This document shows positions 4,137 to 18,875 of a DNA stretch of 20,670 nt, in pieces. The DNA is from a virus. The first letter of the stretch is position 1. Every line of letters begins with the position of its first letter. The stretch is from positions 1 to 20,670 of IMG/VR virus record IMGVR_UViG_3300021185_003607; one strand, 5' to 3'. Both the position numbers and the translations under genes were made by a program. The notes under the pieces are model-generated. The model worked only from the letters and a program-made list of their open reading frames with translations. It was not told the DNA's origin and made no database searches.

Positions 4137-5869
4137 TTGATGGTTCAGGAATAAGTAATCCGTTTTTCTTTATTGGTATTGTTGAAAGCAATAACGATAA
4201 GACACACGAAGGTCGAGTGAGAGTTCGAGCCTTTGGCGTACACGGAACAAATAAAGAAATTGCTTCTACAGATTTACCTTGGGCTATTTGTGCTTCAGGT
4301 AATTACGATCCAAACAATCCACCTCCTCCATTAAATTCATATGTATATGGAATGTTCCTTGATGGAAGAATGGCTCAGCATCCTGTCATACTAGGATTAT
4401 TGCCTGGTATGTATAACACAGAATCAAATCCAACAAAAGATGGTGAAGGTGTTATCGCAGAAAAGAATGGTGAATTATTAGCAAGAGGTTATAATCCAAA
4501 TGATTTCAACGCGGGAGGCGGTCCTGATAGATTAGCTCGTGGTGAATTATTAAACGAAACATACTTATTACAACAAGCAGCCAATAGAGTACACGATCAA
4601 AAGATTGCTGATATGGATGAAACGTGGTCTGAACCACCACCGGCTTACGCAGCAAAATATCCATATAACAGAGTAATTAAAACAGGAAAGCATTCAATTG
4701 AAATAGATGATTCTCCTGGTGCAGAAAGAATTCAAATTACTCATGACTCAGGTGCATATATTCAAATAGATTCTAAAGGTACTGTTTCAGAAAGAGCTGA
4801 AGCAGATCGTTATGAAATTAATATTGGAACAAAACATGAATCATCAGGACATAGTGTAGTTACCATTAACGGTAATTCTCATGTTTATGTTAAAGGAAAT
4901 AAAACAGAAGAAGTAGAAGGTGATTATAAATTACTTGTACATGGTCATACGGAAATTGCTTCAGGTGCTTCGTTAAATTTAAATGGTAGTGATCAAACAA
5001 ATTTAAGAGGATCGGAAGTTAAGTTAGAAGCCAATGCAGGTATTATGACTCTGTTTGGTAAAAAAGAAATACAGTTTGAATCTGTTAACCAATTAAACTT
5101 CGTTGCCAAGAATATTAAAAATACAGCATTAAATACTTACGATGTATTCTCAACCAAAGCAATTAAGTTATCTACTCCAGGTGATATACATAACGCTGCT
5201 TCAAATATTATTAACCTAGCAAGTGGTTTAATACCTCCTACATTATTAACAGGAACATCAGTACCTACACCAGGATGGAGTTTAACGACGCCATCAATGA
5301 ATATTGCTTCAGTATTGACTTCTCATATTGGAATATTCAATGCGACTGCTCTTAATGCAGGTATAATTACTGCAAGCAGTGTTGTGAATACTCCATCGGT
5401 TATTGCTACTTCGGTCGCGGCAACAAGAGGTGACTTTACAACATTAGGTGCACCATTACCAGCAGGTCCTGTATCTTATAATGGAGCATACAGTGTACCA
5501 GTTGCTGCAGTTTCAATACCAAGTATACCTGTTTTATTACCTCCTGCTATTTCCGCACCTGTCGTTGCTCCTTTACCAGGCATTACTTCAGGTTGGGCAT
5601 ATCCTACAGGTAATAGTCCAGAATTTATTACGAAGGTACTTAATCCTGTTAATGCGTTCCTTGCTATTGTTGCTGACTTTGCACCACTAGGACTTGGAGC
5701 TTGGGGTATGAATCTAATTAAAATGCCAGAACCACCTAAGAAGTCAACTTCTATTGTTCCTCGTGGTTATTTTGCGATGGGTTATTCTGGTGGTTATATT
5801 TCAGCTCTCGATGATTCTGCTAAAGATCAAACGAAAAAGTTAACAAGAAGAGGTAGAAGAAATGTCTGA
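4133..5869 (+). CDS. 5: Baseplate hub spike, gp5/VgrG-like, without lysozyme domain
   Basis: The N-terminal OB-fold spans about residues 10-95 (FFFIGIVESNNDKTHEGRVR, VRAFGVHG, LPWAICASG, QHPVILGLLPG), as in T4 gp5. A VgrG-like segment follows at 180-217 (KTGKHSIEIDDSPGAERIQI, then THDSGAYIQID), leading into a beta-helix-like repetitive region to about 365. T4 gp5 carries a lysozyme between OB-fold and helix; here only about 80 residues of Asn/Gly- and charge-rich linker (97-175) are present, with no lysozyme signature. The C-terminal 210 residues are unusual: Val/Ala/Ile/Pro-rich and hydrophobic (for instance 455-483), then Gly/Tyr-rich, ending in a basic tail TKKLTRRGRRNV. It overlaps gp27 by four bases and the M15 gene by eight. 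Confidence 0.85.
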   Translation: MIDGSGISNPFFFIGIVESNNDKTHEGRVRVRAFGVHGTNKEIASTDLPWAICASGNYDPNNPPPPLNSYVYGMFLDGRMAQHPVILGLLPGMYNTESNPTKDGEGVIAEKNGELLARGYNPNDFNAGGGPDRLARGELLNETYLLQQAANRVHDQKIADMDETWSEPPPAYAAKYPYNRVIKTGKHSIEIDDSPGAERIQITHDSGAYIQIDSKGTVSERAEADRYEINIGTKHESSGHSVVTINGNSHVYVKGNKTEEVEGDYKLLVHGHTEIASGASLNLNGSDQTNLRGSEVKLEANAGIMTLFGKKEIQFESVNQLNFVAKNIKNTALNTYDVFSTKAIKLSTPGDIHNAASNIINLASGLIPPTLLTGTSVPTPGWSLTTPSMNIASVLTSHIGIFNATALNAGIITASSVVNTPSVIATSVAATRGDFTTLGAPLPAGPVSYNGAYSVPVAAVSIPSIPVLLPPAISAPVVAPLPGITSGWAYPTGNSPEFITKVLNPVNAFLAIVADFAPLGLGAWGMNLIKMPEPPKKSTSIVPRGYFAMGYSGGYISALDDSAKDQTKKLTRRGRRNV

Positions 5870-7418
5870 TCCATGCGTTGATCCTAATGATCAGATAACT
5901 CAGAATACCTTATCTATCGGTGCAAGACCTGTCACTGATGGTTTAGGAAGATATACTCTTGCGCAGATTGATGTTGTTACTTCAGAAATTGCGGAAAGTA
6001 TTGTAAGAGATGCAGAAAACAATCCACTCAGTAGAGCAGTAAACAAATACGGTAATGGGATATATGCGGCGACAAGTTATCTAAACGGCTTACTAAGACA
6101 ACAAATTGGTTCCCTTGATAATTACCCAGATCTATCAGATAGGTGGGAACGCGGTGATATATCAAACCTGGAGGTTGCTGATTTTATTCAAGCATATAAT
6201 TATACTCCTGCCAATTTATTAACTGATAATGATGCTCCTAAGTTAGCAAGAAACCTTGATGCATATTATAAGAATGATTTCAATACATCTATCTTAGGTG
6301 GCTTTTGTGATAAGTTTGATTCGTTCTTTGCTTCAGTAGATGCTTTCTTTGATTTAATTGGAGTGGTTGAAGGTATTATAGCCGATGCTTTAGAAATCGT
6401 TGGTAAGATTCAGAGAGGATATGATGGAATTAAAGATCTTACAGTTCAGCAATTAATTGATAATTTAATTAAATCCATTAAAGGAAGAATTACAGATGTC
6501 ATAGATCGAGTATTTAATGAAGTACAAGATATGATAGAAAACTTTGATCCTTCTGCGTTGACCGAAGAAGCTGAAACATTTGTAAATAAGAATGTTGTAA
6601 AAGGTATTATGACAACAAGAGAACAAATGTGCGCATTCTTTACAGAAGAGAACAAGAAAGGAATTAAGGATAAAGTAAAAGGTTTAATTGATTACGCAAT
6701 AGCCGCGTTTGAATCACCAGGTATTGAAGAGATTCAATATATCATTTCTCGTATCTGTGCACTTGCTGGAAGTATTGAAGCATTAATACGTGATATCAAT
6801 AAACCACTTGATGATTATACGAGAAGGTATGCCACAATCGTAGATCGTCTTAAAAATATTTCAAGAATTAACGAATCATCAGCAATACGAGCAGGTGGCA
6901 TCAGGTATTCTCCAACAACTAGGAAAGAGGTAATAAATAGATTACAAGGTAGATGGACTTCTCCTGGTGGTAACGAACAAACTGATACAGGTAATTTACC
7001 TAAAAATGTTAAACCAATTACTGCCAAGGATTATAAAGAGTTACCAAGATGCGGGCATGTATTTGCCGGGTCATCAGATGTATTTAAAGTTGAAGGTGAT
7101 TCGTTTGATGAAAAAGAAGGTATAGGTATATACGCATACACAAGAGTTGATCTTGATGTTAAAGTATATTTAAAAAGGTTACAAGAATCAACGAATAAAG
7201 AAAAGCCTTTAACAATAGTCGAAGGTTGGGTTAGCAAAGCTTACAATAAAGAAGCAGACGGCCCAGAAGATAATTCACATTTAAGTGGTTTGGTTGTAGA
7301 CATTAAGAAGGATATGGAAGATCCTGCTAAGTTTATCGAAAACGCTTTAAAGGGTGGATTTAAATACGTTAAAGAATATGACGATAAGATTCATTTAGAC
7401 ATAAGAGAAATACTATAA
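5862..7418 (+). CDS. Hub-associated protein with C-terminal M15-type (D,D-peptidase-like) domain
   Basis: Residues 1-350 are mostly helical and not recognised; 150-330 holds long amphipathic helices that could pack in the hub. Residues about 425-516 look like a zinc peptidase of the M15/hedgehog-DD-peptidase group: KPLTIVEGWVSKAYN corresponds to the family's vtSGyRs-ayN block, SHLSGLVVDI gives ligands His473 and Asp480 with Gly476, and KIHLDIRE supplies His511. GFKYVKEYDDKIHLDIR fits the closing block of the M15_3 subfamily. Such enzymes cut peptide stems of peptidoglycan. Because the adjacent gp5-like protein lacks a lysozyme domain, this is a candidate tail-borne peptidoglycan hydrolase used at entry. 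The start has AGAGG upstream and overlaps gp5 by eight bases; the stop overlaps gp25 by one base. Confidence 0.8.
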   Translation: MSDPCVDPNDQITQNTLSIGARPVTDGLGRYTLAQIDVVTSEIAESIVRDAENNPLSRAVNKYGNGIYAATSYLNGLLRQQIGSLDNYPDLSDRWERGDISNLEVADFIQAYNYTPANLLTDNDAPKLARNLDAYYKNDFNTSILGGFCDKFDSFFASVDAFFDLIGVVEGIIADALEIVGKIQRGYDGIKDLTVQQLIDNLIKSIKGRITDVIDRVFNEVQDMIENFDPSALTEEAETFVNKNVVKGIMTTREQMCAFFTEENKKGIKDKVKGLIDYAIAAFESPGIEEIQYIISRICALAGSIEALIRDINKPLDDYTRRYATIVDRLKNISRINESSAIRAGGIRYSPTTRKEVINRLQGRWTSPGGNEQTDTGNLPKNVKPITAKDYKELPRCGHVFAGSSDVFKVEGDSFDEKEGIGIYAYTRVDLDVKVYLKRLQESTNKEKPLTIVEGWVSKAYNKEADGPEDNSHLSGLVVDIKKDMEDPAKFIENALKGGFKYVKEYDDKIHLDIREIL

Positions 7419-7839: not shown

Positions 7840-9726
7840 ATGGCAAATCCAAAAACACCAATTACCGAACTTGACTTTGATAGAGTCAAGGATCAATTAA
7901 GAACTTATTTACAAACACAAACGCAATTCAAAGACTATAACTTTGAAGGATCGAATATGAGTGTCCTATTAGACGTTCTTGCGTTTAATAGTTATCAAAA
8001 TAACTTCTATACAAACATGGCACTTAACGAAATGTTTCTTGACTCTGCCGTCCTTAAGAACTCAATCGTTTCCCATGCAAAAGAATTAAACTATATTCCT
8101 CGTTCACGTAAATCTGCCAAGGCAACATTATTTGTATTAATCGTTGACCCAAATCAAGAAGGCTCAACAATTACAATTCCAAAGTATTCTCAATTTAGAG
8201 TATCTCATCAAGGTGAAAGTTTCGGATTTGTTACGAATCAAGTATATACAGCAAGAAGAGTAGTTGCTGGTGATATCAATCCGCAGACAGGACAATCATA
8301 TGAAAACAATTCTTTCGTTGCTGAAAGTGTTGATGTTTATGAAGGTGAAATGTTATCAAGTTTCCAAAGAGAAGGTTTTATTGTTGACGCGGATGGTGTG
8401 TTAAGAGTATTCCTTACAAACAACGAAGTAGATACAGATTCAATTGTCGTGTTTGTTGATGCTGAAGCAACAGATGATGCTAACGTATTCCAAAGAGCAA
8501 ATACAATTTATGGAGTAAGACCTTTAGATAAAGTATTCTATCTTGAACCTTATCTTGATGACAAGTATTCAATTTACTTTGGTAAGAATCAATTTGGTTT
8601 ACAACCACAAGAGTTCGAAGATGTAAGAGTAAGATATAGAATCTGTTCAGGAATAGAGCCAAATGGCGCAGGTAAAGATTCTGCGTTTAGTGCAAGCTTT
8701 ATTGAAGGTGCAGAAATTAGTCCTATTACATTATCACAAGCTGCAGGTGGTCAAGAAAGAGAATCATTAGAATCTATTCGTTACTTTGCTCCTAAATCAT
8801 TACAGGTTCAAGAACGTGCAGTTACAACAAAAGATTACGAAGTATTATTACAACAAGCATTCCCTGAAATTTCTGCGGTCTCTGCTTATGGTGGTGAACA
8901 GTTAGATCCACCTCAATTTGGTCGAGTTGCTATTTCTGTTTATTTAAACGATGATACTCAAATCATATCAACAACATTATCTAATTCTTATATTGCTTAT
9001 TTAAAAGAAAGAGCTCCATTAGGTATTGAACCAATCTTTAAACAAACAGAATTCGTTTATGCTGATACAAATATTATTGTAAACTATAGTAGAAAGAATA
9101 CTGAAAAGAGTGCAGCAGAATTAGAATCATTGGTAAGAGCAGAAGTTCAAAAATATTCTGACGATAACCTTGAAGGATTTGATAAAATATTAAGGTCTTC
9201 TAAGTTGGCAGGACAGATCGATGATTTGGATGTTGGTATTTTAAGTACTGAAATATCAATTTGTCCAATTATTGAATATTCACCTCCACTTAATTTCAAT
9301 ACAAACCCAACATTTAGATTTGAAACTAATCTTATTCGTCCTTATGCTTATCAAGCATCTAATGGATTTTCAACTTTTAAACCTGCGATTAAATCTTCAC
9401 CGTTTGACATTGCTGGTACTTGTGTATTTTTCCAAGACGATGGTATGGGTAATATTATGATCATTACTGATGAAGCAACTAATCCACAGATTATTAATCC
9501 AACTGCAGGTACAGTTGATTATGATAAAGGTGAAGTTAAATTAACAAACTTTAAAGTAGAAACATTTACAGGCAGTGCAATTAAAGTATCTGCCAAGACG
9601 GTTGATAACGATGTTGCTGCACCAAAAGGACGAGTGTTTATATTAAGAGATACAGATGTTAAGGTCACAATGGATTTGGAAGAATTCCAAACACCAATAT
9701 CAACTACCTCAACATCAAGTTATTAA
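7840..9726 (+). CDS. 6: Baseplate wedge protein gp6
   Basis: gp6 dimers form the ring that holds the wedges together around the hub and rearrange when the baseplate opens. The 628-aa length is near T4 gp6 (660 aa). The N-terminus shows the family signature: ITELDFDRVKDQLRTYLQ (8-25), then LLDVLAFNSYQNNFYTNMA and SHAKELNYIPRS, followed by J-like beta domains. The block QVQERAVTTKDYEVLLQQAF with ISAVSAYGGEQLDPP is the usual conserved central motif of the gp6/gpJ family. It is two bases downstream of gp25 and 15 bases upstream of the gp7-position gene. Confidence 0.95.
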   Translation: MANPKTPITELDFDRVKDQLRTYLQTQTQFKDYNFEGSNMSVLLDVLAFNSYQNNFYTNMALNEMFLDSAVLKNSIVSHAKELNYIPRSRKSAKATLFVLIVDPNQEGSTITIPKYSQFRVSHQGESFGFVTNQVYTARRVVAGDINPQTGQSYENNSFVAESVDVYEGEMLSSFQREGFIVDADGVLRVFLTNNEVDTDSIVVFVDAEATDDANVFQRANTIYGVRPLDKVFYLEPYLDDKYSIYFGKNQFGLQPQEFEDVRVRYRICSGIEPNGAGKDSAFSASFIEGAEISPITLSQAAGGQERESLESIRYFAPKSLQVQERAVTTKDYEVLLQQAFPEISAVSAYGGEQLDPPQFGRVAISVYLNDDTQIISTTLSNSYIAYLKERAPLGIEPIFKQTEFVYADTNIIVNYSRKNTEKSAAELESLVRAEVQKYSDDNLEGFDKILRSSKLAGQIDDLDVGILSTEISICPIIEYSPPLNFNTNPTFRFETNLIRPYAYQASNGFSTFKPAIKSSPFDIAGTCVFFQDDGMGNIMIITDEATNPQIINPTAGTVDYDKGEVKLTNFKVETFTGSAIKVSAKTVDNDVAAPKGRVFILRDTDVKVTMDLEEFQTPISTTSTSSY

Positions 9727-9741
9727 TAAGAGAGAAAAATA

Positions 9742-12700
9742 ATGCCTCAGGGTGATTTAGAAAAAAATCTATCGCTATTCATTAAGAATCAGTTCCCCGC
9801 TATTTACAGGGAAGATGGACCTGAGCTTGTTCAATTAGTAGAAGATTATTATAAGTTCTCTGAAACGCAAGAGAACCAACATATCTATCAACAAAGAAGA
9901 TTATTCGAGACGAAAGATATTGATACAACATTAGAGAATATGATTATATTCTTTAAGAAAAAGTTTCTTGCTGATCTTCCACTTAAAGCTGATATCATTA
10001 AGTTTATTATTAAAAATATTCTTGATCTATATCGTTCAAAAGGTACCGCTCGAGGTATTGAATTATTCTTTGCCATATTCTATCAAGAGTTTGAGATTGA
10101 AATTGTATACCCTGCTGAAAAGATGCAAAAGGTTTCTGATTCCGAATGGAAGCAAGGTGTATATTTACAGATGTTTCCAAACAACGATTTCTTTACTTCG
10201 AAGTCAGGTAAGGAATATGCTTACAAAGATTTATTAGCAAGAAACATCGAAGGATCTGTAAGTGGTGCAAAGGCATCAGTAAGATCAATTAACTTCTTTA
10301 TTTTAAATGGTATTAAAACTCCTGTCATATATCTTGATGGTATTCAAGGTACATTTAAAAAGTATGAAGATATTTTATCTAACATAGAAGGAGAAGTAGT
10401 TAACTTTGGTAAAGCAAACGGATCTCTTTCAAAGTTTACCATTGTTGATAGATCAAGAGTCGGAGCAAAAAGAAAGAACTTGCCGGGTAGAGAAATTGGT
10501 GAAGTTCTTAATGTACATCAAAAAGATGGTAATGCAGGTAAAGCAATTGTCACTGGTGTAACAAGAGAAGCGTCAGGTCAAATTAAATATGATTTAGTTG
10601 ATGGCGGTTATGGTTACACAATTGATAATACAAGGTTATTAGTTTCCGACCAATCAATTATTTTAGACAACAGTGTAGACGGTTATAATTTAGGATTCAG
10701 AGTTGGAGAATTATTAGAAGACGGCAATGGTAACCAAGCAATGGTCATTGGACAAAACTTGGCTTCAGTCGGTGTTAGACATGCAAGTGGTACTGATGGC
10801 GGAACATTTACTCCAAACTCTACGGTCACAACAATAAGACCACCTATTGACGGTGTTGCACAAACACAACTTTCAATTAACTTGGCTCTTGTTCAGAATC
10901 AATTAGTACAACCTAATGCTTCATCTCCAGGACCATTATATCCTGACACAAATGATACAGGTGATGTTATTGTTTCTCAGTTAGGTGATACAACAATTGC
11001 TTCTATTATTACCGATGTTATAACTCCACATTTACCTACAGTAATAAGTGCACCTGATTATGAAGCTACGGCTCCTATGTCAGGATCTGCTTCTCCTGTT
11101 AGTTTAACGACACCGTTAGATCAAGCATTTGATATTCAAGATTTATCAATTGGAAGAATCGTATCGTTTGCTAATGATAACCCAGGTGCAGATTATCAAT
11201 CCGATGTATTTGCGATTGCTCAGGATTCATTAATTAAAAATGTAGATCGTAAGAATCAATCAATTCTATTTACTGATGCAGGTGACGCAGGATCATTCTC
11301 GGTTGGTGATAGAGTAAAAGGTTGGGATTCTGCTGTCGTTGGTATTGTAAAGTCAATTAACCAACAAGAAGGATTCGTTACAGTAACACCGTATGACATT
11401 GATGGATTTAATAGAGTCGAAAGAGTTTATTTAGAAAATTCACCAACGGCCCCATTTGATGTATTAAGTATTTCAAACGATTATGCTGGTACAGATAGAT
11501 TTGGTGACAATGCTATTATTGAGTCAGAAACAGAATTTGCCATTGGTAAGATTTCAGAAGTAAGTATATTAAACTCTGGGTTTGGTTATTGGGAATACGA
11601 AGTAGATCCAGATCAGATTATAGATTTTGCTGGTGGTCTTGGTGAATTAAGACAGGACGATGGAAAATTTGTTTCTCACGGTATTATCGAAGCAGAGAAT
11701 CAAGGTCAAACAAGTGGTTATTGGGCAGGTACCAATTCTCACTTAAGTGGTTGGAAACAAAATGGTGTAACAACAACCACAACAAATTTACCTCTAATGG
11801 ACTTTTCTTTAGTTGTTTTAAGACTTGCTTTAGGTCAAGATCCAATAACTCTATACCCTTGGCTTTCTCCTTCGTTTGAAAGTTGGTTCAATAGTACAGC
11901 AGAAGATGGATTTGCGATATATGATTTAAGTAAACAGGCACAACCAATTAATGCTGCAACTGCAACTTTCTTCCAACAATTATCAATGAAATCAGCTGCA
12001 GAAAATATTACAGCAAGATGGAACAATATTGTAGTTCCTTCAATGAAACAACAAGTTTGGTATGAATCACATGAAAATCTTTTATGGGTACTTAACGAAA
12101 CAATCAATGTATACGACCAAGAGTATTTAGATTCAGGACAAAGAATACAAGATAGTAATTTCTATCAAGAATATTCTTATCAAATTAAATCAAGCTTACC
12201 ACTACAGAATTATGAAAAGCTATTAAAAGAAAATGTTCACTTAGCAGGTTCTAAACTATTTGGAGACTTTATATTTAAGGCAAAGGTTGGTGGAACAATT
12301 AGACCAAGGTTCTTAAGACTATTTAATGATGATGGCAAAGGTTCTCCGTTTGATGTTGCGAATACAGTTAATCTTGCGGCGGACGTCACAAACTATACGG
12401 CTGATAGTGCTCTTGTATCGGCTGACCACGAACCTGGTGGAGAAGGTGGATTAACATTAAGTCCAACTGCAATACCTGATTTAACAATTACAAAGAATTG
12501 GTTCCAAGGATTCCATGATTATGCTGTAGGTATAAGTATGCCTGAAACAGGTACGGCTCCTTACCCAGTTGCTATTTTATTACATGGCAATGGTGGTACT
12601 GGTTCAGGTATGGTAAATCAATTCAAAGATTTATTGCCAGGACATATTGTTCTTAGCTTACAAGGATATGAAAACTCATGGAACATTTCTAACGAACAGT

Positions 12701-13293
12701 CTAAAGGACCTGATATTGAAGTGTTGGAGGAGTTTGTTGCGTTACTTCAAACTTATTCTAATGTTGATAGTACCAAGATTCGTATTGTAGGTGTATCAAA
12801 TGGTGGTGCACTTGCATTAAGGGCAGCGGTTGAGATTGATGATCCTGCGATTGATACTATTGTATGTATGATATCTCAAACAAATACAAGTCAATACAGA
12901 GATAGTTCATTCTGGTATCCTTTCACTGAATTATATACAGGTGATGATTATACAAATGATGGATATACAACGCCTAAGAATCCAATACCACAAAGAAGAA
13001 TTGTTCAAATGAATGGAAGAGCAGATCTTGTTGTTCCTTATGGTGGAGGAGAGGCTCTTGGAGTTGACTTCCTCTCTGCTCGAGATTCTGCTTATAGGTT
13101 TGCTCAGGCACAAGGATACACTGGAGTAGAAGGTGCAGTACAAAATGCCTACGGAGGTACAAGTAGAATATTTGATTATGGCAATGTAATATTCTTGCGT
13201 GAAGATGTTGCACATACTGTTAGTGATGATATGAAACATCTATTACAGATGTACCTCGAAAACAATTACGACATTGCGACACCTCCGTCATAA
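9742..13293 (+). CDS. Large baseplate wedge protein (gp7 position) fused to a C-terminal alpha/beta-hydrolase
   Basis: The N-terminus (residues 1-210) is a tail-protein module seen in T4-like marine phages: LEKNLSLFIKNQFPAIYRED, a helical region, and the motif YRSKGTARGIELFFAIFY around residue 98. It stands where gp7 stands in T4 (after gp6) and is of similar size without its C-terminus, so a gp7-like wedge role is inferred from context. Residues about 914-1178 form a separate esterase-like alpha/beta-hydrolase: the oxyanion loop LLHGNGGTGSG (His948-Gly949), nucleophile elbow GVSNGG with Ser1019, acid Asp1095 in GRADLVVPYGGG, and base His1158 in DVAHTVSDD. The triad is complete. The style recalls feruloyl-esterase/PHB-depolymerase-like enzymes; the substrate is unknown, perhaps an acylated surface glycan or lipid. 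A Gly-rich linker (about 899-905) joins the parts. There is a good ribosome site (AAGAGAG). Confidence 0.82.
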   Translation: MPQGDLEKNLSLFIKNQFPAIYREDGPELVQLVEDYYKFSETQENQHIYQQRRLFETKDIDTTLENMIIFFKKKFLADLPLKADIIKFIIKNILDLYRSKGTARGIELFFAIFYQEFEIEIVYPAEKMQKVSDSEWKQGVYLQMFPNNDFFTSKSGKEYAYKDLLARNIEGSVSGAKASVRSINFFILNGIKTPVIYLDGIQGTFKKYEDILSNIEGEVVNFGKANGSLSKFTIVDRSRVGAKRKNLPGREIGEVLNVHQKDGNAGKAIVTGVTREASGQIKYDLVDGGYGYTIDNTRLLVSDQSIILDNSVDGYNLGFRVGELLEDGNGNQAMVIGQNLASVGVRHASGTDGGTFTPNSTVTTIRPPIDGVAQTQLSINLALVQNQLVQPNASSPGPLYPDTNDTGDVIVSQLGDTTIASIITDVITPHLPTVISAPDYEATAPMSGSASPVSLTTPLDQAFDIQDLSIGRIVSFANDNPGADYQSDVFAIAQDSLIKNVDRKNQSILFTDAGDAGSFSVGDRVKGWDSAVVGIVKSINQQEGFVTVTPYDIDGFNRVERVYLENSPTAPFDVLSISNDYAGTDRFGDNAIIESETEFAIGKISEVSILNSGFGYWEYEVDPDQIIDFAGGLGELRQDDGKFVSHGIIEAENQGQTSGYWAGTNSHLSGWKQNGVTTTTTNLPLMDFSLVVLRLALGQDPITLYPWLSPSFESWFNSTAEDGFAIYDLSKQAQPINAATATFFQQLSMKSAAENITARWNNIVVPSMKQQVWYESHENLLWVLNETINVYDQEYLDSGQRIQDSNFYQEYSYQIKSSLPLQNYEKLLKENVHLAGSKLFGDFIFKAKVGGTIRPRFLRLFNDDGKGSPFDVANTVNLAADVTNYTADSALVSADHEPGGEGGLTLSPTAIPDLTITKNWFQGFHDYAVGISMPETGTAPYPVAILLHGNGGTGSGMVNQFKDLLPGHIVLSLQGYENSWNISNEQSKGPDIEVLEEFVALLQTYSNVDSTKIRIVGVSNGGALALRAAVEIDDPAIDTIVCMISQTNTSQYRDSSFWYPFTELYTGDDYTNDGYTTPKNPIPQRRIVQMNGRADLVVPYGGGEALGVDFLSARDSAYRFAQAQGYTGVEGAVQNAYGGTSRIFDYGNVIFLREDVAHTVSDDMKHLLQMYLENNYDIATPPS

Positions 13294-13337: not shown

Positions 13338-15125
13338 ATGTCTAAACAAATAATTAATATCGGTGCATCCGCTAACGACGGAACAGGTGATCCGTTACGT
13401 TCTGCATTCGATAAAGCAAACGATAACTTTAATGAGATTTACCTGGCGCTAGGAGATGCAAGTAATGCAACTGATCTATTCGACATTAATGGTAATTTAG
13501 ACCTATCAGGTAAACCGCATAAAATATCATTCTTATATGATACGAAACTTGAGCTCGATAATATTAATCCAGGTACTTATCATGGTTCTATAGGTCATGC
13601 ACATGATACCGGTTCATTATATTATGCTCATGGTGATTGGAGAAGACTTCTTGCTGATACTTCAGAAGGAGCAATTCTAAATTACACAGACCCATTAAAT
13701 GCTTGGGTATATAGTGTAAATCTTAGTAACTCTGAAACCGCAGGACACGTTTTAAGTACACAAGCAGATGGAACATATTCATGGGTTGCTCAATCAAGTG
13801 GTTCCGGTAGTTCATACAGTAATTCTGATGTTGATACTCATTTAAATCAAACTGACCCAGATGCAGGATATGTATTAAGTTGGAATGGAACTGATTACGC
13901 TTGGGTTGCTCAATCAGGTGGTTCCGGTAGTTCATACGGTGATACCGAGGTGTCTGCTCACTTAAATGTAAGTTCAGCCGGCTCAAATCAAATATTAAGT
14001 TGGGATGGTTCTGACTTTGCATGGGTTAACGATCAAACAGGTTCAGGCGGAAGTTCATTTGGAACAAGCGATGTTGATACTCACTTAAATATAAGTAGTG
14101 CTTCAAGTGGACAAATTCTATCTTGGAATGGAACTGATTACGCTTGGGTTGCAGATGCAACTGGTAGCGGAGGTGGTGGTTCAGTTGCTATGACTGACAT
14201 TACTAACACAACAATTACAAATCCACAATCTAATGATATTTTAAAATACTTCGGTAATGATGGGACTTGGAGAAACGTAACATTCACTCCAACTTATTCA
14301 GACATTAGTGAACAGCCTTCCAGTGTTTCAGATAAAGCTGCTTTTCATAATACTTTCCAAAATGCTGCTACAGTATTAAAGGTTACTCATAACGGTTCAT
14401 CCTCATATCGTTTTGACCAATATGGAACAACTGATAACCCAACGATTTATGTTAAAGCAGGAACAACAGTTGGATTTGATTTAACTGATGCGGGTGGTGC
14501 AGTTCACCCATTCGTAATTCAAACTGCGGGTGGTGCAGATTATAACGACGGTTTGGTTGCTTTAGATTCAGGAAACTATTACGAAGGCGCAAACGCAAAC
14601 GCAGGAATCGGTGGTGCCATGTTCTGGAAAATACCAGCAGGTATTTCTGGTAACTATAGGTACATATGTCAAGCACACGCAAGTATGGTTGGTACTATTG
14701 TTGTTGAAGCGGCTGCAGGCGGTGGCGGTGGTGGAGGCGGAAGTTTACCAAGTCGTACATCTCCTTCTCAGGCTACAGCATCAATTGCTGATGGAGTATC
14801 AACAGACCTTGATATTACTGGATTTAAAGGATACGCATTATATACGATTACAACATCAGCCGCGGCTTGGGTAACTCTTTACACTGATGCTAGTGCTCGT
14901 ACATCAGATAACTCAAGATCAGAAACAACAGATCCTGCACCGGATGCTGGTATTATTGCTGAGGTAATTACAACAGGAGCTGAAACGGTAAGATTATCAC
15001 CAGGAACTATTGGTTATAATTTAGAATCAACACCAACAACAAACATACCTGTTAAAGTAAGAAACAAAAGTGGTGGCACAACGGCCATTACAGTAGCTAT
15101 AGAAATACTTCAATTAGAGGCTTAA
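13338..15125 (+). CDS. Tail-fibre-like structural protein with embedded cupredoxin domain
   Basis: The N-terminus (INIGASANDGTGDPLRSAFD, then KANDNFNEIY) is the attachment module common in marine phage fibres. Residues about 139-285 hold near-identical 40-41-residue repeats (LSWNGTDYAWVA, GSGSSY, DVDTHLN). Residues about 345-457 resemble a cupredoxin: strands VLKVTHNG and PTIYVKAGTTVGFDL, His390 in VHPFVIQ, then YICQAHASMVGTIVV giving Cys444, His447 and Met450. C-x2-H-x2-M is the amicyanin-type copper loop, so all four type-1 copper ligands are present. An eight-glycine linker (461-468) leads to a C-terminal beta domain (about 469-595) of a kind frequent at marine phage fibre ends (DLDITGFKGYALYTI, AEVITTGAETVRLSPGTIGY). 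No signal peptide is present. A fibre or decoration protein of the baseplate is likely; copper binding is inferred from ligands only. Confidence 0.8.
   Translation: MSKQIINIGASANDGTGDPLRSAFDKANDNFNEIYLALGDASNATDLFDINGNLDLSGKPHKISFLYDTKLELDNINPGTYHGSIGHAHDTGSLYYAHGDWRRLLADTSEGAILNYTDPLNAWVYSVNLSNSETAGHVLSTQADGTYSWVAQSSGSGSSYSNSDVDTHLNQTDPDAGYVLSWNGTDYAWVAQSGGSGSSYGDTEVSAHLNVSSAGSNQILSWDGSDFAWVNDQTGSGGSSFGTSDVDTHLNISSASSGQILSWNGTDYAWVADATGSGGGGSVAMTDITNTTITNPQSNDILKYFGNDGTWRNVTFTPTYSDISEQPSSVSDKAAFHNTFQNAATVLKVTHNGSSSYRFDQYGTTDNPTIYVKAGTTVGFDLTDAGGAVHPFVIQTAGGADYNDGLVALDSGNYYEGANANAGIGGAMFWKIPAGISGNYRYICQAHASMVGTIVVEAAAGGGGGGGGSLPSRTSPSQATASIADGVSTDLDITGFKGYALYTITTSAAAWVTLYTDASARTSDNSRSETTDPAPDAGIIAEVITTGAETVRLSPGTIGYNLESTPTTNIPVKVRNKSGGTTAITVAIEILQLEA
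13752..14175 (+). repeat. In-gene tandem repeats of 120-123 bp in the fibre gene
   Basis: Units begin at about 13752, 13875, 13995 and 14118, spacings of 123, 120 and 123 bp, all in frame. Units 2 and 4 share a run of 29 identical bases starting TGGAATGGAACTGATTACGC at 13881 and 14124. The junction of units 1 and 2 repeats CAATCA(A/G)GTGGTTCCGG followed by TAGTTCATAC at about 13791 and 13911. Each unit encodes LSWNGTDYAWVA, a Gly/Ser linker, then DVDTHLN. The first unit has diverged at its start and the last is partial. Confidence 0.85.
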
Positions 15126-15129
15126 GATA

Positions 15130-16851
15130 ATGGAAGAATATATTGTCACTCTTCATAACAGAGAAGACTTAGACGATTTCTATAACGATATGGAAACGCC
15201 TGGTGGCGATCTTTATATTCCTGATAGAGCAGTTGATTTACAATTAAGAAGACAAATCAGTCGTAACACTCATTATATGTTAACACCTGAGGAAGTAATT
15301 GAATTAGAAAAAGATCCTCGAGTAATGAGTATAGAATCAAAAGCATTAATTGATTCTATAGAATGGAAAGCGAGTGGATATTCTGAATCCGGTAATTGGA
15401 AAAGAAATAATGGCGTTGCTGTCACAGGGGATAAAAATTGGGGAATACTACGACACACTATTGGTGCCAATGCAGAAAGTGGCACGTGGGGAGATGAAGC
15501 ATTATCTGGAAGTACCAACATTTCATCTGCAACTGTTAATATAACTGCTTCAGGAAAAAATGTTGATGTATTAATCGTTGATGGAGCAATCACAACAACT
15601 GCCATGGGCCACCCAGAGCTTGCCGTCAATGCTGATGGGACAGGAGGAAGTAGAGTTGTGCCGTTTAATTGGTTCTCTCTAACAAATCAATTAGGTTATG
15701 GCGCTAATGGTACCTATGATTATAATACAATGGGCGTAGAAAGTGATACTAATCATGGTGTTCATGTGGCAGGAACCGTAGCAGGAAATACTTTAGGTTG
15801 GGCAAGAGAAGCAAATATTTACAGTTTAGAATTTTATTATACTGGTGCAGTCAATCAGGTTGTGAATAGTTCACCTCTTGTACCATCTACATTATGGGAT
15901 TATATTCGCGAATGGCATAATACTAAACCAATTAACCCAGCCACAGGAAGAAGAAATCCTACAGTAAGTAATCATAGTTATAATGGATCTGTTAGTAGAG
16001 ATAGTCGAATTACCAATGGGATTTATAATGGAGTTGGTATAGTTAGATATAGAGGAGTAACGTACGATAAGTATGGTGATCAAGGATCTGATTTAACTGA
16101 TTCTGAATTAGAAGCAAGAGGTATATATGTACCGCCTGGTGGTAATTGGACTCTCGGCTATAATTCAAATTCAATTAACGCAGATATTACTGATGCAATA
16201 GCCGACGGTATTATTGTAGTAACTTCCGCAGGAAATCATTCTCAAAAAGAAACGAATAATACTGGTAATCAAGACTATGAAAATTATTTGTACCTTAGGA
16301 TAGGATCTAATACATATGCTTCAATTATTCCGAGTAACAGAACAGCTGGTATATCCCTCAATGAACCTACTATAAATGTTGGCACACTTGATGGTTATAA
16401 AGATGACCGTAAAGGATATTGGTCAGTTTGTGGTGATGGAGTTGATATTCATGCAGCCGGAAGGCAAATAATGAGTTCACAATTAACATCTACTGGTGCC
16501 ACCGTAAGTGATTCTAGAAATAGTTCGTTTTATCTTACTAAGAAGAGTGGAACAAGCATGTCTTCCCCACAAGTTACTGGTGTGGTTGCATTACTTATGG
16601 AAAGTAATCCTGGCCTAAATCAAGCGCAAGTCAATGAATGGTTAGAGGCAAATGCAACTAAAGATTTAATGTATGATACAGGAACTGATAGTAGTACTGA
16701 TCTTGTAAGTTTACAAGGTGCACCAAATAGAATATTAAGATGGATTAACCAAAGACCAGAATCTGGTGCGAGTTTTCCAAAAGTAAATGCAAAAGCAAGA
16801 CCTACAAGTGGTAGCGTATATCCACGACCAAGATTAAGAAAGAGAGGTTAG
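15130..16851 (+). CDS. Subtilisin-like serine protease (peptidase S8) in the baseplate cluster
   Basis: The 573-aa protein has a full S8 catalytic set: Asp151 in DVLIVDGAI, His209 in NHGVHVAGTVAG, oxyanion Asn369 in VVTSAGNHS, and Ser476 in GTSMSSPQVTG; the block CGDGVDIHAAG precedes the serine region. Residues 1-80 (EEYIVTLHNREDLDDFY, then YMLTPEEVIELEKDPRVMSI) look like an inhibitor_I9-type prodomain or a small virion-attachment module. There is no signal peptide or membrane segment, so it stays in the infected cell or is built into the virion. The C-terminal 50 residues are basic (KARPTSGSVYPRPRLRKRG). AGAGG precedes its ATG, four bases after the fibre stop, implying co-transcription from the promoter at 13302. 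It may mature the fibre or other tail proteins, or degrade host surface protein; the sequence does not decide between these. Confidence 0.9.
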   Translation: MEEYIVTLHNREDLDDFYNDMETPGGDLYIPDRAVDLQLRRQISRNTHYMLTPEEVIELEKDPRVMSIESKALIDSIEWKASGYSESGNWKRNNGVAVTGDKNWGILRHTIGANAESGTWGDEALSGSTNISSATVNITASGKNVDVLIVDGAITTTAMGHPELAVNADGTGGSRVVPFNWFSLTNQLGYGANGTYDYNTMGVESDTNHGVHVAGTVAGNTLGWAREANIYSLEFYYTGAVNQVVNSSPLVPSTLWDYIREWHNTKPINPATGRRNPTVSNHSYNGSVSRDSRITNGIYNGVGIVRYRGVTYDKYGDQGSDLTDSELEARGIYVPPGGNWTLGYNSNSINADITDAIADGIIVVTSAGNHSQKETNNTGNQDYENYLYLRIGSNTYASIIPSNRTAGISLNEPTINVGTLDGYKDDRKGYWSVCGDGVDIHAAGRQIMSSQLTSTGATVSDSRNSSFYLTKKSGTSMSSPQVTGVVALLMESNPGLNQAQVNEWLEANATKDLMYDTGTDSSTDLVSLQGAPNRILRWINQRPESGASFPKVNAKARPTSGSVYPRPRLRKRG

Positions 16852-16895: not shown

Positions 16896-18875
16896 ATGCC
16901 TGAAATTTTAACAAACAATTTTAATCAAGACATTAATAAGTTATTCATAGCTGATGCAAAGGCTAACGATGACTATTATATGTTTGTTTCCAGCATTGGC
17001 GGTATTGAGCCAGTTGATTCTGCTACTTCTCAAAATGAGTTTTTAGAAAAGACTCTATTTGCCAAAAAGATAAAGAACGATGATATTAACTTTATGATAA
17101 AGTATTATCCTTGGCAAAGAGGAACCGTATACGCTGAATACGATGATAGTATTGATTTAGACGGTCTTAAGTTTTACGCGGTCGTTGGTCCTAACGATAA
17201 TGATACCGATGATTATAGAATTTATAAATGCCTTAATAATAACGAAGGCGTAGGTTCAGAATCTCCACCAACATTTGATGCAGCTAACGTAAATCAAGTT
17301 TATGAAACTGCCGATGGTTATGTGTGGAAGTATATGTATCGTCTCACTACATTACAATTCGAAGGTTATAATGCTTTAGGTTATATACCAATTGATCCTG
17401 AAACAACCATTGAACCAGCTGAGGTTTACGGCGGTGGTATTTCAGAGATTCAAGTAACTAATGCAATTGTGAATAATGGATACGAAGAAAAGAATGGACT
17501 TATTAATAGAAACCTTGGTAGAGTAGGTAGTCCTTTAACTCACGGTGATGTTTTATTAGAAATAGATCCTAGAGAACAAGATTGGAATGAAACCGATAAT
17601 TATTATGTAGGTCAATATCTTTATGCTACAAACCCAAGTTCAAGTGTTACCAACTTATTTGTAATTAAATCATATGAATTACAAACAGGTTCAGGTTTAG
17701 CAAGAATTGTTGTAGGTGGAGAATTAGCAGATCCTAGACGTGGTGTTATTGAAAATGCAACAGCAGCTGCACCAGTTGCTATTACATCAACTGACCACAA
17801 CTTAGTTAACGGACAACCAATTACTTTTAGAAATGTTCAAGGTATGGTTGAATTAAATCTTAATGAATTGTCATCTGATACAGTAGCAGCTACAACATTT
17901 TATGTTTCAGTAATTGATGCCGATACATTCTCATTAAAAGCTGATCCTTTATTGGTTACTGATTTAGATGGAAGTGGATTTACTAATTATGATTCAGGCG
18001 GTACCTGGGAAGCATTAACTGATTGGGAAATTTCTACTTCAGTCGTAAACGCAAATATTAAAATATTCCCAAGAGTTATTATTCAAGGTGACGGAGTAGG
18101 AGCAGTTGCAGTTCCTGAGATTGATTCCGGTGGAATTAATAAAGTCATATTGTTAAATAAAGGTTCAGGATATAATAATGCAATTGCATCAGTCGTTGAT
18201 CCTATCATTGACTTTAATCCAGGTGGAACAGAATCAGCAGACGTAAGAGCAACAATTAAACCTATTATTGAACCAAAAGGTGGACACGGTTATAACTTGC
18301 TTGACGAATTTAGATGTAAACATTTTTCAATGTATGCTTATATTACAGCAGAAGATAATACAAAGATCGGTGATAAGAATACATACGGATGTATTGGTAT
18401 TGTAAGAACTCCTCAATTTAAAAGTATGGTAGATGTAAATACATGGAGAAGTGGACAAGCAAACACTGCCTCTGAGCCTGACATATTCGATAATAGAATC
18501 GCAATTGTCACTGATGATTATGCAAGATTAAATGCAAATAGTACAATCACACAAGTTGATGTAAACAACGATGTTATATTCCAAGCTCAAGTACATGAGA
18601 TCGACGAAGCTTCGAATACAGTTTATTTGGCTGAATATATAGGTCCATATAAGAATAATGCACTTGTTGGTAATGGAGATACATCATTTAACCCAAATCT
18701 AGCAATTACATCAAATACTGGTCAGAGAATAACAATAAATAATCCTATAGCAGATAATGTTGTGTATTCAGATTATAAACAAAGAACAGGCGAAGTATAC
18801 TTCATGGAGGAATTCTTCCCATTAGCAAGAAACGACCTCTCAAGAGAAGAATTTAAATTTGTACTGGAATTTTAA
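16896..18875 (+). CDS. 8: Baseplate wedge protein gp8, enlarged form
   Basis: gp8 is a wedge subunit that binds gp7 and gp10 in T4. The signature is present in the first 170 residues: PEILTNNFNQDINKLFIAD, YRIYKCLNNN (107-116), and TADGYVWKYMYRL (138-150), the usual gp8 blocks. At 659 aa it is about twice T4 gp8 (334 aa). One visible insertion at about 289-374 (APVAITSTDHNLVNGQPITF to YDSGGTWEA) resembles the E1-FCCH-like beta module found in many phage structural proteins. Later blocks include NKGSGYNNAIASVVDP and a C-terminal EVYFMEEFFPLARNDLSREE. In T4, gene 8 directly follows gene 7; here the fibre and protease genes stand between them. Confidence 0.85.
   Translation: MPEILTNNFNQDINKLFIADAKANDDYYMFVSSIGGIEPVDSATSQNEFLEKTLFAKKIKNDDINFMIKYYPWQRGTVYAEYDDSIDLDGLKFYAVVGPNDNDTDDYRIYKCLNNNEGVGSESPPTFDAANVNQVYETADGYVWKYMYRLTTLQFEGYNALGYIPIDPETTIEPAEVYGGGISEIQVTNAIVNNGYEEKNGLINRNLGRVGSPLTHGDVLLEIDPREQDWNETDNYYVGQYLYATNPSSSVTNLFVIKSYELQTGSGLARIVVGGELADPRRGVIENATAAAPVAITSTDHNLVNGQPITFRNVQGMVELNLNELSSDTVAATTFYVSVIDADTFSLKADPLLVTDLDGSGFTNYDSGGTWEALTDWEISTSVVNANIKIFPRVIIQGDGVGAVAVPEIDSGGINKVILLNKGSGYNNAIASVVDPIIDFNPGGTESADVRATIKPIIEPKGGHGYNLLDEFRCKHFSMYAYITAEDNTKIGDKNTYGCIGIVRTPQFKSMVDVNTWRSGQANTASEPDIFDNRIAIVTDDYARLNANSTITQVDVNNDVIFQAQVHEIDEASNTVYLAEYIGPYKNNALVGNGDTSFNPNLAITSNTGQRITINNPIADNVVYSDYKQRTGEVYFMEEFFPLARNDLSREEFKFVLEF

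Follow-up and report, generated by a model that had tools for sequence, protein, structure and literature searches.

The BW3 proteins of contractile tails build the baseplate wedge with their N-terminal helices, and the rim is made of their C-terminal globular parts, to which the receptor-binding proteins attach (PMC10811340). The polysaccharide-modifying enzymes described so far in phages come almost exclusively from tailspikes and tail fibres, and tailspikes are known to remove acyl groups from surface polysaccharide (PMC5380687). The hallmark of carbohydrate esterase family 1 (CE1) is a Ser/Asp/His triad together with a G-X-S-X-G motif (PMC7332973). The window analyzed here, a 20,670-nucleotide stretch of viral DNA, encodes a wedge protein that carries an esterase domain at its carboxyl end. 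A wedge-esterase fusion was sought in the literature and, within the partial coverage of that search, no description was found. The novelty lies in the place of the esterase on a wedge protein; the fold and the chemistry are ordinary.

The esterase-wedge gene and its baseplate neighbourhood

A single open reading frame on the plus strand (9742-13293) encodes a protein of 1183 residues, so the fusion of an esterase to a gp7-position wedge protein, claimed in an earlier note made from the letters alone, is present in one frame. The gene lies directly downstream of the gp6 wedge gene (7840-9726) and is followed by two other genes and by a gp8-type wedge gene (16896-18875, PHROG 438), all on the plus strand, with gp6 and gp8 as synteny anchors. 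The first of the two intervening genes (13338-15125, plus strand) encodes a gp9/gp10-N-type wedge/fibre connector with a cupredoxin-like domain at residues 363-457; the protein also contains repeated 'DVDTHLN...SWNGTDYAWV' units. The second (15130-16851, plus strand) encodes a subtilase of the S8 type (Pfam E 1.5e-17) that has HGVHVAGT and GTSMSSP motifs and is related to cyanophage subtilases. Elsewhere in the window, positions 5862-7418 encode a protein whose C-terminal part resembles M15 peptidases (PHROG 25247, E 7.5e-11), possibly a further baseplate enzyme, and residues 297-371 of the gp8-type protein (17784-18008) gave a Pfam E1 FCCH match slightly under the cut-off (E 8.4e-7).

The conserved wedge core, residues 6-311 (9757-10674, plus strand), matched the baseplate wedge subunit family PHROG 17744 with an E value of 1.4e-87. 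The identity to the wedge proteins of phiM12, Cr30 and DLP_6 was 31-34%. BLAST matches to phiM12 (E 7e-43), Cr30 (E 2e-36) and Pelagibacter phage Mosig (E 3e-15) fell at two places, the core and a C-terminal wedge motif at residues ~797-846 (12130-12279, plus strand) that is also found in a cyanophage giant protein. Immediately before this motif is an insertion of ~120 residues (residues ~676-796; 11767-12129, plus strand) that is partly helical in the model, has no family matches and is absent from one relative, L131.

The connection to T4 gp7 is bridged by phiM12, residues 6-122 of which match T4 gp7 residues 640-758 (E 3e-5). A family profile aligned window residues 12-123 with T4 gp7 647-760 (hhalign P 5e-4, at a probability of only 31%), and T4 gp7 was missing from the results when the full-length profile was searched against the PDB sequences. 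The detectable homology spans only ~115 residues, which are N-terminal here and lie at 640-760 in T4 gp7. Since only the core is common to both and occupies opposite ends of the chain, the protein as a whole is not collinear with gp7; the term gp7-position protein holds for gene position and core homology but not along the whole length. Confidence in the N-terminal core of the full-length model was low (pLDDT <50), residues 1-137 were modelled too poorly for a comparison with T4 gp7 by fold, and the fold-search list was filled by esterases, so that the placement in the wedge was based on homology. With the core homology and its location right behind gp6 among the baseplate genes, the protein is best read as the wedge subunit at the BW3/gp7 position in the baseplate of a marine T4-like phage.

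The linker and the esterase domain

The wedge part is joined to the esterase by a linker, residues 881-902 (12382-12447, plus strand), in which SADHEPGG is conserved despite low model confidence. The Gly-rich linker proposed earlier does connect the two parts, but it is more than flexible filler, as the conserved motif SADHEPGGTGGLTL lies inside it. No ATG, GTG or TTG codon was found between residues 870 and 932, the linker included, so that the esterase domain has no start of its own and is translated only together with the wedge part.

The domain itself comprises residues ~903-1177 (12448-13272, plus strand). The span given in the earlier note, 12481-13275 (residues 914-1178), covers the homologous core, but the structural domain begins ~11 residues earlier. 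Residues 905-1175 matched PHROG 2576 (E 3.6e-60), and 65 cyanophage records, 34-41% identical, aligned with 97% of the domain. The closest solved sequence was PDB 9j07 (E 1.8e-9). An AlphaFold2 model calculated with 28 window and IMG/VR sequences had a pLDDT of 89.6 and a pTM of 0.88. Foldseek and VIA-align alike gave Aspergillus oryzae acetyl xylan esterase B as the top structural match (Foldseek E 1.8e-13; Z 24.4, 244 residues, rmsd 3.0 Å), followed by Z score by feruloyl esterases (22.1 and 21.1), a PHB depolymerase (20.9) and the acetyl xylan esterase 5x6s (20.8). Among viral models, the cyanophage YHYH-esterase and S-MbCM7 proteins matched best. The alpha/beta-hydrolase fold that had been expected from the motifs is thus clear in the model.

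The HGNGG oxyanion loop, residues 948-952 (H948-G952; 12583-12597), the putative nucleophile Ser1019 in GVSNG (12796-12798), the putative triad acid Asp1095 (13024-13026) and the putative base His1158 (13213-13215), all on the plus strand, were found in the frame exactly where they had been reported. In the model, Ser1019 lies exactly between a strand (128-138) and a helix, as in a nucleophile elbow, and Asp1095 and His1158 follow strands 206-212 and 269-274, respectively (model numbering). This topology, from which co-location was judged, is the one expected for the triad of this fold. The order of the GXSXG serine, acid and histidine on this fold is that of a serine alpha/beta-hydrolase, and the hallmark of CE1 is likewise present. 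The Pfam and NCBIfam esterase models all matched under their curated cut-offs; the short-chain PHA depolymerase model NF050058 scored 34.9 bits against a cut-off of 150 bits (E 1e-8).

Conservation, proposed function and competing explanations

Relatives were retrieved from IMG/VR by the wedge core alone, and the loci having the 3' end of the gene were counted. The fusion is kept in 45 of these 47 loci, and 27 of 28 non-redundant complete proteins carry the esterase. Asp1095 and His1158 are present in all aligned relatives that cover them and Ser1019 in 115 of 119. The dN/dS of the domain, 0.10-0.28, is similar to that of the remaining protein and indicates purifying selection. Outside this group, a single weak match (L137, 30% identity over 101 residues) emerged when 84,980 bacterial and archaeal genomes were scanned for near relatives of the domain. 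In a further locus (L075:726-3798) the wedge gene is read as two overlapping ORFs, whether by frameshift, sequencing error or real fission.

The two exceptions, L131 and L135, end where the linker starts and seem to represent a single virus type. In the tree, L131 is placed within the fused relatives (88/88), which suggests that the domain was lost rather than gained, although an AU test did not reject the alternative (p 0.108). Four other loci (L122, L123, L124 and L134) have Ser1019 replaced by Gly and Gly949 by Glu in an open frame, and the Gly1019 domain is 75% identical to intact relatives. As the four are identical in the domain protein, they were counted as one lineage. A simple reading as a permanent and essential esterase has these two types against it, in which the nucleophile or the entire domain is missing.

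The reading that we favour, at a probability of roughly 0.6, is that of a baseplate-borne acyl esterase that deacylates host surface polysaccharide during adsorption; its activity, substrate and virion location we infer. The N-terminal helical core would build into the wedge. The esterase would then be mounted, probably in several copies on each virion, at the rim of the baseplate, the attachment site of receptor-binding proteins. By analogy with the C-terminal parts of BW3 proteins in contractile tails, it would face the host surface. On contact, Ser1019, His1158 and Asp1095 may hydrolyze the ester bonds of acyl groups, acetyl being the likeliest, on a polysaccharide, for example O-antigen or capsule, and the barrier would be thinned or a receptor unmasked. 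Earlier, de-acylation of either polysaccharide or lipid had been envisaged; the best matches were polysaccharide deacylases, and lipases were not among the best, which favours the former. However, the substrates of the closest enzymes are plant polymers, and a fold does not fix the substrate.

The cyanophage homologues show the domain in other company. In S-ShM2, S-SSM4 and ACG-2014d it follows a YHYH domain, in a gene adjoining that of a giant structural protein. The S-SSM4 giant of 6,932 residues (L027:9788-30586) carries the wedge core and the C-terminal motif, whereas the S-SSM4 esterase gene has neither. The S-ShM2 gene labelled gp7 (L001:7104-8825) encodes a YHYH-esterase without a gp7-like core, and given the position of the core in S-SSM4 this label is probably wrong. 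A published comparison reported gp7 to be absent from cyano- and pelagimyophages (PMC7029224). In S-MbCM7, subtilase, esterase and cupredoxin are united in one protein of 974 residues. The window subtilase is homologous over its full length to the N-terminal part of that protein (33% over 593 columns), and a further match to the S-MbCM7 protein (32%) lies in the cupredoxin region of the gp9-like protein; in the window these two modules occupy the two genes following the esterase-wedge gene. A subtilase-esterase fusion also occurs at L083:4339-6783, on a contig stretch with no other recognized wedge genes nearby. These arrangements suggest that the three modules act jointly at one place. A bolder extension, which we regard as possible but hold only tentatively, is that the baseplate rim is an exchangeable rack on which esterase, subtilase and cupredoxin, in changing order and either fused (as in the single S-MbCM7 protein) or separate (as in the three neighbouring genes of the window), jointly open the host envelope, with the esterase a non-catalytic binder in one lineage.

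The possibility was considered that the domain is a former esterase that now serves mainly as a carbohydrate- or receptor-binding module or as a spacer, catalysis being dispensable. The lineage of four contigs has lost both the nucleophile and the oxyanion-loop glycine while the domain remains open and conserved, and the module is interchanged with YHYH and other surface modules. However, all other sampled relatives that cover the triad retain it intact, as do the cyanophage homologues at 35-41% identity, and the domain is under purifying selection, so that this explanation is unlikely.

About equally improbable is that the esterase acts on something else, be it a lipid, a protein acyl group or a polyester (PHB-like) polymer. 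NF050058 was the best named-enzyme profile match, albeit below its cut-off, and APT/lysophospholipase and PHB depolymerase structures matched at Z 20-21. The top solved matches, however, were acetyl-xylan and feruloyl esterases (Z 24.4 and 22.1), and at the baseplate rim the enzyme would encounter the outside of the cell rather than PHB granules within it. That the fusion is an assembly or frame-reading artefact and the esterase a separate protein, as the split gene of L075 and the separate cyanophage genes might suggest, is very improbable and is contradicted at the sequence level by the same fused frame in many samples and by the absence of a start codon from the junction.

Implications and comparison with known systems

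An enzyme built into the wedge is not exchangeable like a spike and would be expected to have a fixed stoichiometry, which suggests that adsorption in this marine group always includes a step of barrier modification. Ready comparisons are offered by the natural Ser-to-Gly lineage and by the relative without the domain. A psbA-type gene was found in none of five long related contigs (largest 156 kb), which weakly favours a non-cyanobacterial host.

AoAXEB (PDB 9j07/9j08) and the fungal CE1 acetyl-xylan and feruloyl esterases (5X6S, 8IYB) share with the window domain the alpha/beta-hydrolase fold (~245 residues), GXSXG and the Ser/Asp/His residues, but they are fungal, are not virion parts and are at most ~20% identical. 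The cyanophage proteins of PHROG 2576 (S-ShM2, S-SSM4, ACG-2014d, S-MbCM7) have the same domain at 34-41% identity, and in the first three the gene adjoins baseplate genes; the partner, however, is YHYH or subtilase plus cupredoxin instead of a wedge core, and the proteins are annotated as hypothetical or, in S-ShM2, as gp7.

The BW3 proteins T4 gp7, phiM12 gp105 and Cr30 gp248, which the comparison here covers, have the wedge core and the gene order after gp6 in common with the window; P2 gpI is a further BW3 wedge protein. The esterase is absent from T4 gp7 and from the phiM12 and Cr30 proteins, which stop near the point at which it is attached in the window. The tailspike and tail-fibre deacetylases of Vi phages, c341 and G7C deacylate surface polysaccharide from the virion, as is predicted from sequence for the window protein. 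While those enzymes sit on spikes or fibres, the esterase of the window is carried by the wedge protein itself.
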